NCBI GenBank assembly: GCA_030066655.1
Contig: JASJBE010000010.1
Span: 1 to 32,626, forward strand
DNA from: Woeseiaceae bacterium
GTDB taxonomy: Bacteria; Pseudomonadota; Gammaproteobacteria; Steroidobacterales; Woeseiaceae
Direction: 5' to 3'
Length of the DNA: 32,626 nt
Shown: positions 1-7,829 of the stretch, piece after piece
Layout of the letters: the number at the start of each line of letters is the position of its first letter
Numbering within the stretch: position 1 is the stretch's first letter
The notes under the pieces: generated by a model
The model's input: only the letters and a program-made list of their open reading frames with translations
What the model was told of the DNA's origin: nothing
Databases searched by the model: none
Made by a program: the position numbers and the translations under genes

Positions 1-216
1 GACGTTGAGGCTCAGTCGCGCTGACTGGGCCGGGCCTGCGCAGGCTGCGTCGAGACGAAACGGGAAGGTCAGCGTCGGCATGTCCTTCTGCTGGGTTTCC
101 GACACGCCGATCTCCGCGACGGCCGGCTGCGCCCTGAACAGGACGTAGTGTCCGTCGTCCGCGTGGACGACGGGCGCAAGCGTTAGCAGCACGAGAGCGA
201 GTCGTGATTTCGGCAT
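1..216 (-). CDS. Secreted hypothetical protein, N-terminal part (cut by left edge)
   Basis: An open frame starts with ATG at 216 and runs leftward off the window, giving 72 visible residues with no stop. The first 19 residues look like a signal peptide: a basic MPKSR start, a hydrophobic LALVLLTLAP core and a VVHA/DD cleavage site. The mature part begins DDGHYVLFRAQPA and contains one cysteine. I do not recognise the family from this fragment. It is divergent from the PGPGW-like gene at 281, with only 64 bases between them. No clear ribosome binding site is visible. Export is reasonably sure; function is unknown. Confidence 0.6.
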   Translation of the reverse strand, partial: MPKSRLALVLLTLAPVVHADDGHYVLFRAQPAVAEIGVSETQQKDMPTLTFPFRLDAACAGPAQSARLSLNV

Positions 217-280
217 TCGAGGGTTCCAGTCAATGGCTTGTCTTGCACTATCGTACCGGTTCGCGGTCTACTGATGCACG

Positions 281-538
281 ATGATCTTGAAGACCATTCA
301 CCTGACTTACAAGATGGCGCGGCGCATCGTCATCCTTGTCGTGGGCGCGACGGTGATGCTCGTTGGCGTTGTCATGATTGTGACGCCCGGGCCCGCCTTT
401 GTCGTGATCCCTCTCGGCCTGGCGATTCTCAGCATCGAGTTCGCCTGGGCGAGACACTGGTTGCGCAAGCTGCGTGAGCAGATATCCAACGGCACCGCCC
501 AACTCCAGTCGAACAAGATCGAGCAGCGGCGCAGGTAG
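281..538 (+). CDS. PGPGW-like small transmembrane protein
   Basis: This 85-residue protein has a hydrophobic stretch at about residues 15-50. Its core, VTPGPAFVVIPLGLAILS followed by EFAWARHWLRKLR, matches the pattern of the PGPGW family of small bacterial inner-membrane proteins: TPGPG, then a hydrophobic run ending in LGLAIL, then EF-WA-R and a basic helix. The second G of PGPG is replaced by A here. A polar C-terminal tail rich in Q, N and R would lie in the cytoplasm. The molecular role of the family is not known. The ATG at 281 was chosen because it gives a normal-length family member; ribosome binding is weak. The next gene on this strand is almost 600 bases away, so it appears to be transcribed alone. 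Confidence 0.75.
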   Translation: MILKTIHLTYKMARRIVILVVGATVMLVGVVMIVTPGPAFVVIPLGLAILSIEFAWARHWLRKLREQISNGTAQLQSNKIEQRRR

Positions 539-566
539 CGGATTCGGTTTGAGGGCGGCCTGCCGG

Positions 567-640
567 TAAAAACAGGCGCCGGAGTACTGAAACTAGTGAT
601 TGTCAGCGGGCCGATCCGACACGGAACGGACTCCGGCGCC
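567..640 (-). terminator. Candidate intrinsic terminator on the minus strand (11-bp stem, long loop)
   Basis: A perfect 11-bp inverted repeat is formed by GGCGCCGGAGT at 575-585 and ACTCCGGCGCC at 630-640. Read on the minus strand, the second arm is followed at once by TGTTTTTA (574-567), the usual U-run of a Rho-independent terminator. The 44-base loop is longer than normal, so inner structure would have to form first. In this direction it would end a transcript coming from the sigma-54 promoter at 1002-1017. On the plus strand the hairpin has no following T-run, so it is a poor terminator for the gene at 281. Confidence 0.5.
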
Positions 641-668
641 CGAGGGGTAACGGCAGGGGAGTGCCGCC

Positions 669-727
669 GGACCGAAAAGGTCCGTATTCGCCACCGGCCG
701 ACTGGCCGGTGTTATCGACCGAACACC
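669..727 (-). other. Row of hairpins in a non-coding block (540-837)
   Basis: Three perfect short inverted repeats sit next to each other. They are GGACC-GAAAA-GGTCC at 669-683, CACCGGCC-GACT-GGCCGGTG at 692-711, and GGTGTT-N8-AACACC at 708-727. The last two share bases and so would be alternative folds. A 10-bp palindrome CGAAATTTCG follows at 770-779. With the 575/630 stem this makes the block unusually structured. Overlapping open frames here (661-1008 plus strand, 603-857 minus strand) have no domain and poor starts. The block may be the structured 3' part of the transcript of the small gene at 838-945, or a small RNA. Strand is assigned from that context only. Confidence 0.4.
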
Positions 728-837
728 GACTCAAACAAGGGGGGAGGGTAGAGTCGATATCCTGCCGAACGAAATTTCGATATTTGTGCGTGGGGAGGGA
801 ATTCAAGCTCTCAGTCGAGAAGCTGAAGCGCGCCCAT

Positions 838-945
838 TTAGAAGTGTCGCCCTCCAAACGCTATGCCGACAAAGATCGCGAAACCGACGAAGAGCAGGGC
901 GCTCGCCGCGATCGTCGCAACCTGTGTCCAGAGTCGAGTTTTCAC
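838..945 (-). CDS. Predicted 35-residue single-span membrane peptide
   Basis: A short minus-strand frame begins with GTG at 945 and ends with TAA at 840-838, encoding 35 residues. It starts VKTRLWTQ and has a continuous hydrophobic run, roughly ATIAASALLFVGFAIFVGIA, then ends GGRHF. That fits one transmembrane helix with a basic N-terminus on the cytoplasmic side. AAAGGA lies seven bases before the GTG, a good ribosome binding site. An upstream in-frame TTG sits too close to that site to be preferred. A near-consensus sigma-54 promoter at 1002-1017 points at it, giving a leader of about 45 bases. I recognise no family. The call rests on the site, the helix and the promoter, so it could still be a chance frame. 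Confidence 0.5.
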   Translation of the reverse strand: MKTRLWTQVATIAASALLFVGFAIFVGIAFGGRHF

Positions 946-1001
946 ATTCAATTCCTTTGCCCAAGAAACAGTGCGCACGTGGCGCATACACAGATCAACA
1001 T

Positions 1002-1017
1002 TGCATGATGCGTGCCA
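1002..1017 (-). promoter_or_regulatory. Candidate sigma-54 promoter (-24/-12)
   Basis: Read on the minus strand, positions 1017 to 1002 are TGGCACGCATCATGCA. The sigma-54 consensus is TGGCACG-N4-TTGCW. The -24 block matches in all seven bases, the -12 block differs only in its first base, and the spacing between the invariant GG and GC is the required ten bases. The start of transcription would be near 991, about 45 bases before the GTG at 945. A sigma-54 activator gene lies immediately divergent, with a palindromic site array about 75-95 bases upstream of this start point. Confidence 0.62.
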
Positions 1018-1064
1018 AGACTAAAAAGCCAGCACGAACAATGAGTTAGAGATCCGATAATTCT

Positions 1065-1087
1065 ACGGTATTCCGTAAATAACGGAA
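1065..1087. promoter_or_regulatory. Overlapping palindromes, candidate activator binding site (enhancer/operator)
   Basis: Two overlapping inverted repeats share a central arm: ACGG-TATT-CCGT at 1065-1076 and TTCCGT-AAATA-ACGGAA at 1071-1087. A weaker ACGA-TTTT-TCGT follows at 1104-1115. The array lies between the sigma-54 activator gene (start 1127) and the sigma-54 promoter at 1002-1017. This is the position expected for an upstream activating sequence bound by the C-terminal Fis-type helix-turn-helix of such activators. It also sits just upstream of the activator's own likely promoter, so autoregulation is possible. Binding is inferred from position and symmetry only. Confidence 0.45.
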
Positions 1088-1114
1088 AAACGTGAATCAA
1101 GTAACGATTTTTCG

Positions 1115-1120
1115 TAGTCT
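1115..1120 (+). promoter_or_regulatory. Candidate -10 element, leaderless start of the sigma-54 activator gene
   Basis: TAGTCT is followed by six bases (CCCCGC) and then the ATG at 1127. No purine-rich ribosome binding site is present. A start of transcription seven bases after the hexamer would fall on the A of ATG. The -35 region (around 1092-1097, GTGAAT) is a poor match. The same arrangement is seen before the genes at 5057, 13137 and 23990. Confidence 0.35.
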
Positions 1121-1126
1121 CCCCGC

Positions 1127-2926
1127 ATGAGCGACCGGGACCATTACCGCTGGCTGTTCCGGCGTGCGCCGGCGTTGGCGACGTTTATCGGGGAGGATGG
1201 GACATACCTCGACGTCAGCGATGCGTTCGCAAGGCGCCTCGGCTACGCGCGAGACGAGATTCTCGGAAAATCGCCCGACACATTCATGACATCCGCGAGC
1301 GCGGAGCGCGCGAGGACGGAATTCCGGCCGGCGCTCCGCAGAACGGGGAAGCTCGAACGAAAGCCCATCAGCTTCGTCTCGCGTGACGGCGAGACCGTTG
1401 AATGTGTCGCGAACGCAATCGTCGAGCTGGACCCGGACGACGTCTTCGTCCGGACCGTTGCGATGTACCGGGAGATATCGGACGAGGCGCGGACGAACTT
1501 CAAGTATCGCGACCTCTACCGCGAGACGCCGGCCATGCTGCATACGCTGGATCCGGACGGACGGCTCGTCACCGTGACGGACCGCTGGCTCTCGAAACTC
1601 GGCTACGAACGGGACGAGGTTATCGGACGGCCGGTCATCGAGTTCTACAGCGAAGCGGACCGGGCGCGATGGGCCGACGGGAGACTGCAGGCGTTGATCA
1701 ACGCCGGCGACTTCAACAACCTCGAACGCCAGATGGTGACCAAGGACGGGCGGGTCCTGGACCTGCTCATGTCAGCCATCGCGCATCGGGGGGAGGACGG
1801 CGACGTCGACCAGTTGCTGATCGCGTCCAAAGACCTGACGGAACGCAAAGCGGCCGAGCGGGAGCTCCGCGAGACGCTTAAAGAAAACGCACGTCTCCGC
1901 GAAGAGCTCGAACGGGAGCGCGACTACCTCCGCGAGGAGGTCAACGTGGCGATGAACTTCGGGCGCATCGTCGGCAACAGCCCGTCCTTGAAACGGATGC
2001 TGCAGCGGGTCGAGGCAGTCGCCCAGACGCCCGCGAGCGTCCTGCTGCTGGGTGAGTCCGGCGTCGGCAAGGAACTGGTCGCTCGCGCACTTCACGCGCG
2101 TGGACCGCGGTCCGAGGGTCCGCTGGTCAAAGTGAACTGTGCGTCTATCCCGAAAGAACTGTTCGAAAGCGAGTTCTTCGGTCATGTAAAAGGCGCATTC
2201 ACGGGTGCGCATCGTGATCGGGTTGGGCGTTTCCAGCTCGCAGATGGCGGAACTCTGTTTCTCGATGAGGTGGGTGAAATCCCGCTGGAGCTGCAGGGCA
2301 AACTGCTGCGCGTATTGCAGGAGAGTGAGTTCGAACGCGTTGGCGACGATGAGACGCGCCGCGTTGACGTTCGCGTAATCGCTGCGACGAACAGGGACCT
2401 CGCCCAGCTGATTGATGCCGGCGAGTTTCGCGAGGACCTGTACTACAGGCTCAGCGTCTTTCCGATCGATGTGCCTCCGCTGCGCGAGCGCGGGGACGAC
2501 GTCGTGCAACTCGCCCAGGACTTCCTGAAGCAGACCTGCCAGGAATTCGGACGCGAGGGCCTGTCGCTGACGCGGGCACAGGCCGACCAGCTGATGCAAT
2601 ACGACTGGCCCGGCAACGTCCGGGAGCTCAAGAATGTCATCGAGCGTGCGGTCATTCTGTCGCCCGGCAACGTGCTGCGGCTGGAGGCTTCCTTACCGAC
2701 GTCCGGGCGTCGTATGCTGAAGGCCGTGGCGCAAGCCGATCAGGACACCATCATGACCGAGGCCGAGCTGAAGTCGCTGCAACGCAGGAACACGATTCGG
2801 GCGTTGGAGGCGACGGCGTGGCGCGTCTCTGGCGAGGGCGGTGCCGCAGAGCTTCTGGGCCTGAGGCCGACGACCCTGGCCGACCGGATCCGATCCATGA
2901 AGATCGAGAAGCCGCGTCGGACATGA
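1127..2926 (+). CDS. PAS-PAS sigma-54-dependent transcriptional activator
   Basis: This 599-residue protein is a bacterial enhancer-binding protein. Two PAS-type sensory domains occupy about residues 5-120 and 125-245. A charged coiled-coil linker (about 240-275) follows, then an AAA+ ATPase domain with Walker A GESGVGKE at 309-316, the sigma-54 contact loop GAFTGA at 356-361 and Walker B LFLDE at 377-381. The C-terminus (about 555-599) is a Fis-type helix-turn-helix: [15 protein letters not shown] then PTTLADRI. There is no phosphoacceptor receiver domain, so the input is probably a small molecule, heme or redox cue sensed by PAS, or a partner protein. It would remodel sigma-54 RNA polymerase by ATP hydrolysis. 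Palindromes at 1065-1087 and a sigma-54 promoter at 1002-1017 suggest its target is next door. Its TGA overlaps the next ATG by four bases. Confidence 0.93.
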
Positions 2927-3621
2927 CGAGACGCCAGGCTTTGCGACTGCTCGTCCTGGTCACGCTCGTGGCTGGCATTGCGCTGCTTCAATTTCTGCCG
3001 ATAAGAGACATGCTGGACGCCGTCACGGCGTTCGAGGCCCGGTCTCCGTTGCTCGCCGCCATCGTCTACGTGTCGCTGGCCGTGCTGATGATTGCCCTCA
3101 TGTCGCCCGGATGGGTCATCATGATGATGGCCGGGCTTATGTTCGGCGTCGTCCAGGGCGTAGCACTGGCGACGATAGCGATAACGCTGGGAGCGCTGGC
3201 GTCGTTCTTCGTGGGCAGGACGCTGGCGCGGGACTGGGTTCGTACCCGCATCAGCGGGAATGCGCGGCTGGAGGCGCTGGACCACGCGATCGAGAATCGT
3301 TCGTTTCGCATCGTGTTCCTGACCCGGGTGGCGCTCGTGCTGCCATTCAACCTGTTGAACTACGTTTACGGCGCCACCCGCGTGTCCGCCCGAACCTATG
3401 CAGCGGCGACCGCCGTCGGGATGCTGCCGCCGATCGCGCTGTATGTTTATCTCGGCAGTTTGAATGATGACATCGCCCAGATATTATCCCGGGAGCGCTC
3501 GTTGGACGCATCGAGTTGGGTCGCCATCGGCGTCGCGATTATCGCGATCGTCATCGTCGTGCGAGTCATTCGTAAAGCAGCCGATGAGGCGCTCAAGGAA
3601 CGACTGAGCGAAGAAGGATGA
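2923..3621 (+). CDS. TVP38/TMEM64 (VTT domain) family membrane protein
   Basis: This is a 232-residue inner-membrane protein with about six hydrophobic segments (roughly 8-25, 43-60, 62-80, 81-98, 128-180 and 198-216). The VTT-domain signature is clear: SPGW at 61-64, GLMFG at 71-75, FFVGRTLARDW at 95-105, and the conserved RVALVLPFNLLNYVYG at 135-150. Relatives (YdjX/YdjZ, DedA-like) are thought to be lipid scramblases or transporters. The exact substrate is unknown. The ATG at 2923 overlaps the stop of the sigma-54 activator gene (ATGA), and its own stop overlaps the start of dacB in the same way. The three are therefore probably translationally coupled. A longer upstream start at 2818 would lie inside the activator gene and is not preferred. 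Confidence 0.88.
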   Translation: MTRRQALRLLVLVTLVAGIALLQFLPIRDMLDAVTAFEARSPLLAAIVYVSLAVLMIALMSPGWVIMMMAGLMFGVVQGVALATIAITLGALASFFVGRTLARDWVRTRISGNARLEALDHAIENRSFRIVFLTRVALVLPFNLLNYVYGATRVSARTYAAATAVGMLPPIALYVYLGSLNDDIAQILSRERSLDASSWVAIGVAIIAIVIVVRVIRKAADEALKERLSEEG

Positions 3622-5036
3622 TTGTGTCTCGAACCATCGTTTGCTGGATCCTGCTGTTGGCTGCACCCGTCTGGGCGGCAGGCGATGCCCTGCCCCCGGG
3701 CGTTCGCAGCGTGCTGAATGTGCGGGACATACAGGACAATGAGATCAGCCTGTACGTCACCGACATCGAGAGCGGCGAGGTCGTTCTGGAATGGAACGCC
3801 GATGAACCACGTAATCCGGCCTCGACGATCAAGCTGATCACCACGCTGGTCGGGCTCGACGTCCTCGGCCCGGCTTACACGTGGACAACTGACATCTACG
3901 CGCTGGGCGAGGTGGAGAACGGTCGGCTCAATGGTGACTTGCTGATCAAGGGACACGGCGACCCGTTCCTGGTCACCGAGCGCGTGTGGCAAATGCTGCG
4001 CCTCGTTCGGCAGTACGGCATCCAGGAGATCGGCGGCGACCTGCTGATCGATGACTCGTATTTCCAGGTCCCTGACTTCGATCCGGCTGCGTTCGACAAC
4101 CAGCCGCTCCGGGCCTACAACGTCGGTGCCAACGCACTGCTGATGAACTTCAAGGTTGTGCGCTACTGGTTCGAACCGGACTTCGACAAGAACGCTGTGC
4201 GCGTCCTCGTCGACCCGCCGCTGGACAATCTGAAGGTCGATAACAGGTTGTCCCTGAAGCCGGGCAGCTGCCGTGGCTACCAGCGCGGTATCAGTATCAG
4301 CGCAAACGAGTCCTTCGATGAGATCGCTCTGTCCGGTCGATTCCCGAGCGGCTGTGAGCGATACGCGATGGACCGGTCCGTGCTCGATCACGCGGAGTTC
4401 GCCTACGGCCTCGTCTCGTCACTGTGGCGGGAACTTGGCGGCCAGTTCGACGGTGACTGGCGTCGAGAGATGGCGCCGGAAGAGGTCGAGCCACTGCTCG
4501 AGTTTCGCTCGTTGCCCCTCGGCCACCTGATCAAGCGCATCAACAAGTACAGCAACAACGTCATGGCGCGACAGATGCTGTACACGTTGGCGGCGGAAGA
4601 CGAGAAGCTGCCGCCGACCGAAGCGGCAGGTCGGCACCTGATCAAGACATGGCTTGAGGAGCGTGACCTGGACGGCGGCGGTTTCGTCCTGGAGAACGGT
4701 GCGGGCCTGTCTCGTGAGTCGCGGATCAGCGCCAGGCAGTTCGGCCGAATACTGTCGTATGCCTGGCAGCAGCCCTACATGCCGGAATTTCTTGCGTCGA
4801 TGTCGCTCTCCGGCCTGGACGGCACTGCCAGACGCCGCTTCAGGGATCCGTCCCTGTCCGGGCTTGCGCACCTGAAGACGGGGTCCCTGGACCATGTGTC
4901 GGCCGTTTCGGGGTACATGCAGTCGCGATCCGGTCGGCGCTTTGCGCTCGTCGTGTTGCAGAACGCCGAAGACATTCATCGTGGCCCGGGTGACGAGGTT
5001 CACATTGCCTTGATGAAGTGGCTTAACGACAAGTGA
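3618..5036 (+). CDS. dacB: D-alanyl-D-alanine carboxypeptidase/endopeptidase (PBP4, DacB)
   Basis: This 472-residue protein is a class C low-molecular-mass penicillin-binding protein that trims peptidoglycan stem peptides and cuts cross-links in the periplasm. A signal peptide covers about residues 1-21 (VCWILLLAAPVWA then AGD). The three active-site motifs are present: S69-T-I-K72 (nucleophile and base), S312-N-N314 and K420-T-G422. Conserved flanks include NPASTIKLIT, YSNNVMARQ and LKTGSLDHVSAVSGY. The length suits the PBP4 family (about 470 residues), with its inserted domain between the first and second motifs. It overlaps the preceding TVP38-type gene by four bases (ATGA). The next gene follows within about 20 bases. 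It is probably involved in cell-wall recycling or morphology along with the other wall enzymes at 21607-24490. Confidence 0.95.
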   Translation: MIVSRTIVCWILLLAAPVWAAGDALPPGVRSVLNVRDIQDNEISLYVTDIESGEVVLEWNADEPRNPASTIKLITTLVGLDVLGPAYTWTTDIYALGEVENGRLNGDLLIKGHGDPFLVTERVWQMLRLVRQYGIQEIGGDLLIDDSYFQVPDFDPAAFDNQPLRAYNVGANALLMNFKVVRYWFEPDFDKNAVRVLVDPPLDNLKVDNRLSLKPGSCRGYQRGISISANESFDEIALSGRFPSGCERYAMDRSVLDHAEFAYGLVSSLWRELGGQFDGDWRREMAPEEVEPLLEFRSLPLGHLIKRINKYSNNVMARQMLYTLAAEDEKLPPTEAAGRHLIKTWLEERDLDGGGFVLENGAGLSRESRISARQFGRILSYAWQQPYMPEFLASMSLSGLDGTARRRFRDPSLSGLAHLKTGSLDHVSAVSGYMQSRSGRRFALVVLQNAEDIHRGPGDEVHIALMKWLNDK

Positions 5037-6659: not shown

Positions 6660-7829
6660 ATGCAACTTCGTCCGCTCGAGTCCTACGATGTGTCCCCAGA
6701 TCGAGGCTTTCTGTGCAAGTACGACCCGGCGCGCGTCGCGCTGCCGGATATCCTGCAGCCGGTCCGGTCACTGGCGCTGTCACTGCCCGAGCGAATTGTC
6801 GCCGGCCGCGCGCGACGGGATATCGAGGTCTTGGAACCGGTATCGCTCAAGAACCTGAACGAGATCGACGACGAGGCCGTTCTGCGAACTGCACTCGTTC
6901 ACTACACGTTCCTGGCGCAGGCCTACGTCTGGTGCGAAGAGAAGGTGCCTTCTTCACTGCCCGCGGCGGTCTCCCGCCCATTGTGGCTGTTGGCAGACCT
7001 CCTGGGTCAGCCGCCGATACTGACCTACTCCCAGTATGTGCTGGACAACTGGTCACTGATCGACAAACCGGGCCCGATCGACCTCGGCAACATCACCATG
7101 CCGCAGCATTTCGACGGAGGGATGGACGAGTCCTGGTTCGTGCTGATCCATGTCGGCATCGAGGCAGAGGCCGGGCGCATGCTCGGGCGCATCCCCGACG
7201 CAATCCGGGCGGCGAATGACGGCGATACGCAGGCACTCGCTCAGCATCTTGACGAGATGATCGGCGTGTGGGGCCGGATGCAGGACGTGTTCAATCGCAT
7301 GCCGGAGCGTTGTGACCCTTACATGTACTTCCAGCGGGTCCGTCCGTGGATCCACGGCTGGAGAGACAACCCGGCCCTGCCGAACGGCATTCTCTATGAC
7401 GGTGTCGAGGAGACACTGGGCAAGCCGCAGTCGTTTCGTGGACAGACCGGCTCTCAGTCGTCAATCGTCCCGGTCATGGACGCATTCTTAAGTGTCGGAC
7501 ACGGTCTCGACCCATTGCGAGGCTATCTCGATGAACTGCACATCTACCGGCCGCCGAAGCACCGGGAGTTCATCGACGAGGTGCGGGCGGCTAGCACCGT
7601 TCGTGATGTCGTGAAGCGGGCGGCGGACCCTTCGCTGACCGAAGCGTATAACGAATGCCTCGAGGCGCTGACTCGCTTCCGCACCCGCCATCTCGAATAT
7701 GCAGCGAGCTATATCGCGAAGCAGTCACGGGCCGGTGTCGGCAATGCGCCGGACGTCGGGACCGGCGGTACGCCGTTCATGAAGTACCTGAAGAAACATC
7801 GCGACGAGGCGGACGCGCATCGACTGTAG
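6660..7829 (+). CDS. Indoleamine 2,3-dioxygenase family protein (tryptophan to N-formylkynurenine)
   Basis: This 389-residue protein matches the animal/fungal-type heme dioxygenase that opens the indole ring of L-tryptophan. Diagnostic stretches are SFRGQTGSQSSIVPVMDAFL (from S258), HREFIDEVRAASTVRDVV, then a helix with RFRTRHLEYAASYI carrying H344 as the likely proximal heme ligand (human IDO1 H346), and GTGGTPFMKYLKKHRDE from G367. The N-terminal helical domain (1-110) includes YTFLAQAYVW and LPAAVSRPLW. The length is close to human IDO1 (403). GAGAGGG five bases before the ATG supports the start. No formamidase or kynureninase gene is in the window, so the fate of N-formylkynurenine cannot be read here. 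The divergent Lrp-type gene is its probable regulator. It is convergent with cysB. Confidence 0.92.
   Translation: MQLRPLESYDVSPDRGFLCKYDPARVALPDILQPVRSLALSLPERIVAGRARRDIEVLEPVSLKNLNEIDDEAVLRTALVHYTFLAQAYVWCEEKVPSSLPAAVSRPLWLLADLLGQPPILTYSQYVLDNWSLIDKPGPIDLGNITMPQHFDGGMDESWFVLIHVGIEAEAGRMLGRIPDAIRAANDGDTQALAQHLDEMIGVWGRMQDVFNRMPERCDPYMYFQRVRPWIHGWRDNPALPNGILYDGVEETLGKPQSFRGQTGSQSSIVPVMDAFLSVGHGLDPLRGYLDELHIYRPPKHREFIDEVRAASTVRDVVKRAADPSLTEAYNECLEALTRFRTRHLEYAASYIAKQSRAGVGNAPDVGTGGTPFMKYLKKHRDEADAHRL

Follow-up and report, generated by a model that had tools for sequence, protein, structure and literature searches.

A sigma-54-type regulatory circuit of Woeseiaceae, in which a PAS-containing activator faces its own candidate target, is real and has been overlooked, and its most novel part is a structured RNA that the preliminary description of this DNA had missed. 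Woeseiaceae are among the commonest bacteria of marine sediments. According to our working model, to which we give a slightly better than even chance, a dedicated activator controls one sigma-54-dependent dual-function transcript that would supply both a membrane peptide and a regulatory RNA with C-rich loops, the whole forming a closed module. Sigma-54 dependence, a single continuous transcript, a role for IHF and autoregulation are features that we infer from the DNA and its relatives.

The window, i.e., the entire stretch of 32,626 nucleotides that was analyzed, is contig C160 of a 3.6-Mb genome assembled in 167 contigs, which contains rpoN. A wider scan of genomes kept 80/245 relatives. 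The genome sets used for comparison comprised 37 genomes of the same genus, including the window's own, and 23 others of the order. Altogether, 122 loci were read, 90 of them distinct, and all 122 could be anchored on a -24/-12-like element. The nearest relative is L044, with 93% identity over the first 300 residues of the activator. The features of the locus are as follows.

568..640, minus strand: long terminator-like stem followed by GUUUUU (from the fold)
649..668, minus strand: hairpin P5, loop ACUCCCCU (stem nearly invariant)
668..684, minus strand: hairpin P4 (fold and alignment)
692..711, minus strand: hairpin P3 (fold and alignment)
716..767, minus strand: hairpin P2, loop UACCCUCCCCCCUUGUUU (covariation, C-rich loop)
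838..945, minus strand: small ORF of 35 codons plus stop, GTG start, one hydrophobic helix (translation and relatives)
1002..1018, minus strand: -24/-12 element TTGGCACGCATCATGCA, GG-N10-GC, with a start predicted near 991 (read directly, and relatives)
1036..1048, no strand: position of an IHF-like element, the window copy being off consensus (81/90 loci fit WWWCARN4TTR)
1065..1076, no strand: palindrome 1, ACGGTATTCCGT (ACG-N6-CGT)
1082..1093, no strand: palindrome 2, ACGGAAAAACGT (ACG-N6-CGT)
1104..1115, no strand: palindrome 3, ACGATTTTTCGT, adjoining the activator start (ACG-N6-CGT)
1127..2926, plus strand: PAS-PAS-AAA+-HTH sigma-54 activator, 599 aa (Pfam PAS families; Sigma54_activat, 6e-72)

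Promoter, operators and divergent activator

The preliminary description had read a minus-strand -24/-12 sequence with GG and GC at the right spacing, and the exact element indeed lies at 1018-1002. The pattern TTGGCACR-N4-WTGCA has one exact match in the window; when up to two mismatches are allowed, there are three matches versus 2.09 expected. Among the 90 distinct loci, the GG is present in all and the GC in 89, while the remaining locus (L035) proved intact after re-anchoring, giving 90/90. In the first 42 loci, 108-150 nt separate the element from the point where the activator match begins. Comparison across relatives shows that the predicted promoter element is kept as a real feature. 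A hairpin with a T-rich tail (992-972), located at or in the predicted 5′ leader, was scored as terminator-like and also occurs in L044; it might attenuate the transcript.

Palindromes had been claimed at 1065-1087. They are present, but there are three rather than two, the third being located at 1104-1115. Their proposed role as operators upstream of the -24/-12 element is supported by relatives, since ACG-N6-CGT palindromes number three in 79/90 distinct loci, two in 10 and one in a single locus. A strict tandem-palindrome pattern gave 32 matches in 17/36 genomes, all beside the activator, with 0 matches for the reversed control, and no match in 19/36 genomes, the window's own among them. 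The window also fails to match a first operator pattern because its middle palindrome misfits that pattern. When the triple operator was searched for with at most two mismatches, it was found once in the window's genome, at this locus and with 0 mismatches; the reversed-pattern control also had 1 match. Comparison shows the putative operators to be confined to this locus. The preliminary claim that the activator lies beside its own target is supported by comparison as well, the target being sigma-54-type as predicted from its promoter.

Between palindromes and promoter, an IHF-like sequence (WWWCARN4TTR) is found in 81/90 loci, at the same position in 75, versus 1/90 for the reversed sequence. 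The strict form WATCARN4TTR fits just 16/90 loci, and the window is among the 9/90 loci that contain neither form.

The gene starting at 1127 in the opposite direction had been described as a PAS-PAS sigma-54 activator, which Pfam confirms through PAS families and the sigma-54 interaction AAA+ domain (PF00158) at residues 281-447 (6e-72). A GAFTGA loop was recognized by eye in the translation and is conserved in an alignment of 42 orthologs. Orthologs occur in 35/36 other genomes of the genus (854-962 bits), and more distant ones in 6/23 other genomes of the order (640-762 bits); in G029, a genome that is 84% complete, the activator was not found. A class-wide search of 369 genomes with the first 300 residues yielded 4 matches at E 1e-40, namely the window's own, one from the same genus, one from the same order and a 1638-aa frame from another part of the class.

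The activator start lies 13 nt past palindrome 3 in 70/90 loci, no Shine-Dalgarno motif precedes it in any of the 90 loci, and TATACT-like boxes often adjoin palindrome 3 across these loci. This arrangement suggests that the activator mRNA may be leaderless and that palindrome 3 could shut it off. Because palindrome 3 adjoins the activator start, the activator probably limits its own synthesis. A leaderless activator mRNA (1104-1130) would also escape an anti-Shine-Dalgarno RNA.

As for neighboring genes, a PGPGW-family membrane protein gene (281-538) converges on the 3′ end of the RNA described below, and a similar frame was seen by eye in many relatives. The activator is followed by genes for a VTT-domain membrane protein and an S13 D-Ala-D-Ala carboxypeptidase with overlapping ends (2923-5036). 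An indoleamine 2,3-dioxygenase family gene (PF01231, 1.4e-86) lies at 6660-7829.

A small hydrophobic ORF of variable length

The GTG frame at 945-838, which had been described as lying behind AAAGGA and encoding a one-helix peptide, is present as claimed and encodes the 35 residues MKTRLWTQVATIAASALLFVGFAIFVGIAFGGRHF. Downstream of the promoter, 89/90 loci have a small ORF whose N-terminus is hydrophobic; these are all the readable ones, as the contig ends in L069. A ribosome-binding motif was scored in 87/89 of these ORFs, and the starts are ATG in 84 and GTG in 5; however, these counts are not independent evidence, as the ORF picker favors hydrophobic frames with a ribosome-binding motif. 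The window and L044 have the start, frame and length (35 codons, GTG) in common with no frameshift, and 6/9 of their differences fall at third codon positions. Over 61 loci, the entropies of the three codon positions are 1.05, 0.69 and 1.64. The pN/pS ratio ranges from 0.06 to 0.64 over 25 chosen pairs (0.44 for the window versus L044), with pooled values for short, mid and long forms of 0.20, 0.26 and 0.43, respectively. Comparison shows that the predicted ORF is coding and under purifying selection. The preliminary description had proposed relatives as a test of the circuit, in which loss of the promoter or of the small frame, or frameshifts in the latter, would speak against it. The promoter is retained in 90/90 loci and the small frame in 89/89 readable ones, and the frame of L044 is intact.

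About half of the loci (48/89 readable ones) carry a longer ORF, 81-113 codons in length except for one of 115, so that the 35-residue form looks like a reduction. Typical long forms start like MKSRNIENRLAYVGALIVLVGVTWAASSAFGAE, followed by some 60 more residues; by eye, they resemble a signal peptide joined to a helical part that is exported. For one long form, the protein collection contains 24 homologs. Any of these with a source name is called hypothetical protein, and none contains a Pfam domain. The predicted structure of a long form is helical, with low confidence (pLDDT 55.2, pTM 0.23). In L039 and L041, both from relatives within the order, the long small proteins contain EIVVTAPRP and MTVTAPR, motifs that we take to resemble TonB boxes.

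The small protein has no Pfam match, and its one NCBIfam similarity, to SecE (E 0.066, 13.4 bits), is far under the cut-off of 96. A toxin was considered and rejected, given the absence of a Pfam match, the distance of the SecE similarity from its cut-off and the hypothetical status of the homologs, none of which points to a toxin. The toxin-like action earlier suggested for the peptide has no result in its favor.

A structured RNA with C-rich loops and its possible roles

The unit had been thought to be confined to the promoter-peptide stretch, ending at 838. This limit does not hold, as a structured RNA follows the ORF at ~767-568, composed of hairpins P2-P5 and a long terminator. The stem at 568-640 is absent from a simple terminator scan, whose loop limit is 8; a terminator-like stem with a T-run is found in 78/85 loci that are long enough, a count without a shuffled control. 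Folding of the 278 nt located 3′ of the window's ORF gave a z-score of -4.39, and the whole 431 nt gave -3.43.

In the training alignment of 44 segments, changes on both sides were seen in 16/24 pairs. The resulting covariance model matches 77/90 distinct loci, once each; 44 of the 77 trained the model and 33 are outside the training set. In the fitted alignment, 93.3% of cells pair and 17/24 pairs change on both sides. Cells with both-side changes number 220 versus 62.8 in shuffled alignments, and 0/500 shuffles reach any of five covariation measures. P5 is without covariation because its stem hardly varies, and constancy is its only support. Comparison shows that a candidate structured RNA with covarying stems is present at the locus.

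Within the genus, the model matches 34/37 genomes, all with a match beside the activator, while 0/23 other genomes of the order are matched. Matching genomes have one copy each, except for G023, with two copies on different contigs, one of them truncated by the end of its contig. No match was obtained in G001, G005 and G029; the locus of G001 (L037) was weakly matched when searched alone (E 0.0025). A class-wide search of 274 genomes with stricter filters returned 2 matches, the window's own and one from the same genus. No Rfam match was found in window positions 1-3600 up to E 5, and in 10 relatives there were two, SorX in L042 and suhB in L027, both below the gathering score.

In this RNA, CCCC is present in the P2 loops of 77/77 matched loci and in the P5 loops of 73/77, and meanwhile the P2 stem changes freely. 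After the ORF, hairpins that have 7 or more pairs and a C-run in the loop occur in 86/87 testable loci, versus 23/87 for hairpins with a G-run loop. The outgroups from the order (L038-L043) have no model match, yet are among the 86 with C-run hairpins.

Under our working model, when its cue is present, the PAS-sensing enhancer-binding protein would bind the three palindromes and open sigma-54 RNA polymerase at 1018-1002, in most species with the aid of IHF-type bending. The transcript, predicted to be about 424 nt long and to run from ~991 to the terminator at 568, would encode the small hydrophobic peptide (35 aa here) in its 5′ part, and its 3′ part would fold into P2-P5 with two exposed C-rich loops. 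Most likely, these loops would lower the translation of other mRNAs by pairing with G-rich stretches close to their start codons, a mode of targeting proposed by analogy only, after the sX13 RNA discussed below. The peptide had previously been put forward as the circuit's output; a real hydrophobic ORF is there, but it is not the whole output, since it is followed by a covarying RNA whose loops are rich in C.

Screens for partners of the loops were carried out on both other mRNAs and the transcript itself. A G-rich pattern complementary to the P2 loop was searched for ahead of ATG and exceeds its reversed control in most of 60 genomes; as it also does so in members of the order without the RNA, it mainly reflects ordinary ribosome-binding sites. 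The motif UUGGGC in the 5′ UTR was rejected as a general partner of the C-rich loops, being above the shuffled level in 13/89 loci only, and GGG in the 5′ UTR is below shuffled expectation (40/89 loci versus a mean of 50.3). In the window, a TTGGGC listed at 857-941 is part of a hairpin loop immediately upstream of where the ORF starts.

Alternatively, only the small protein might matter, and the 3′ structure would then protect the mRNA as a stable untranslated tail with a terminator. In keeping with this reading, the ORF is a constrained coding sequence, and no model match was obtained for the outgroups L038-L043, whose ORFs are long. A mere stabilizer, however, needs no fixed loop, whereas the loops of P2 and P5 remain rich in C although the P2 stem varies on both sides; moreover, every one of the 41 loci with an ORF below 60 codons retains the RNA. 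We regard this explanation as unlikely. Equally improbable in our view is that the RNA, rather than pairing with mRNAs, holds a protein, which could be CsrA (via GGA loops), Hfq or some other C-binding protein. Both csrA and hfq are present in the window's genome, and GGA occurs in 51/77 P3 loops and 46/77 P4 loops, which makes a role for CsrA possible. On the other hand, neither P3 nor P4 of the window has GGA in its loop, and the most widely kept loops are the C-rich ones. That the ORF and the RNA are separate genes, the RNA arising from its own promoter or from processing unrelated to the sigma-54 circuit, is highly doubtful: the P2 C-rich motif does start anywhere from ~23 to 137 nt past the stop codon, but a simple scan of 500-1160 found no sigma-70-like site (0.3 expected), and the model-matched RNA is always beside the activator and downstream of the sigma-54 element, save the contig-end piece of G023.

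To return to the dual-function transcript, on a tree of the activator, built by a quick method with a midpoint root and containing several long branches, the ORF-length classes need 11 changes versus 36.1 in shuffles (L069 counted as short), and the deep lineages carry long ORFs. The covariance model is positive in 41/41 loci with ORFs of less than 60 codons and in 36/48 with long ORFs. In one long-ORF locus (L123), the ORF seems to run into the RNA, with the P5 motif 6 nt past the stop, and this locus may represent a damaged short form. The overall pattern fits a putative shrinkage of the protein while the RNA was kept, although 44 of the 77 matched loci had served to train the model. More speculatively, and with less than even confidence, we suggest that the locus is an mRNA turning into a regulatory RNA. 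Its ancestor would have encoded an exported protein of some 80-115 aa, followed by a C-loop hairpin. Within one family, this protein would have been cut repeatedly to leave a membrane helix of 30-50 aa, and the 3′ end would have been fixed as a four-hairpin RNA with two C-loops, now the main output of a single-operator regulator. The peptide may then serve the RNA, for example by holding it at the membrane during translation.

Relation to known regulatory RNAs

The weak SorX (RF02784) similarity in L042 (positions 705-771) occupies the place of the C-loop RNA (31 bits, E 0.0013, gathering score 46.6); neither the window nor any of the other 9 scanned relatives gave a SorX match.

In Vibrionaceae, Qrr1 is a sigma-54-dependent regulatory RNA located directly upstream of luxO in the opposite direction, as given in the accessible part of the source (PMC8043402). 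The present locus resembles that arrangement, as far as it is described there, in that the candidate RNA is divergent from and adjacent to the activator, with activator and sigma-54 sites in between (PMC8043402). Unlike LuxO, however, the activator has PAS regions, and its score for the LuxO equivalog is 297.1 bits versus a cut-off of 800. The RNA also differs from Qrr1 in having a conserved ORF and C-rich loops, in lacking an Rfam match in the window and in being present normally at one copy per genome. By the tests made, the locus is not a member of the Qrr/LuxO system.

The Xanthomonas RNA sX13 acts without Hfq to repress mRNAs whose start regions contain G-rich motifs, and like the candidate RNA it has several stems with C-rich apical loops, according to the part of the source consulted (PMC3771888). 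Whereas sX13 is 115 nt long, the RNA described here is preceded by an ORF and a sigma-54 element. In the Rfam scan of window positions 1-3600, no homology to sX13 was found.

The gene glnA is sigma-54-driven. Its 3′ UTR gives rise to GlnZ, an sRNA that requires Hfq and RNase E and, within the portion of the report available, offers a parallel for a regulatory RNA downstream of a coding sequence on the same transcript, a single transcript being presumed in our case (PMC9731577). GlnZ follows a metabolic enzyme; the candidate RNA, in contrast, follows a small, shrinking membrane peptide and carries C-rich loops.

No paper on a regulatory RNA of Woeseia or Woeseiaceae was found in PubMed Central, as far as the searchable excerpts show. 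The locus provides a candidate dedicated regulatory RNA of Woeseiaceae that has a known address and comes with a structural model as well as a predicted start and a predicted activator. Traits that usually occur separately are combined here, namely a putative sigma-54 RNA next to its activator, loops rich in C and a conserved peptide encoded by the same strand, and the graded ORF lengths over 89 loci allow a direct comparison of how an mRNA becomes a regulatory RNA.
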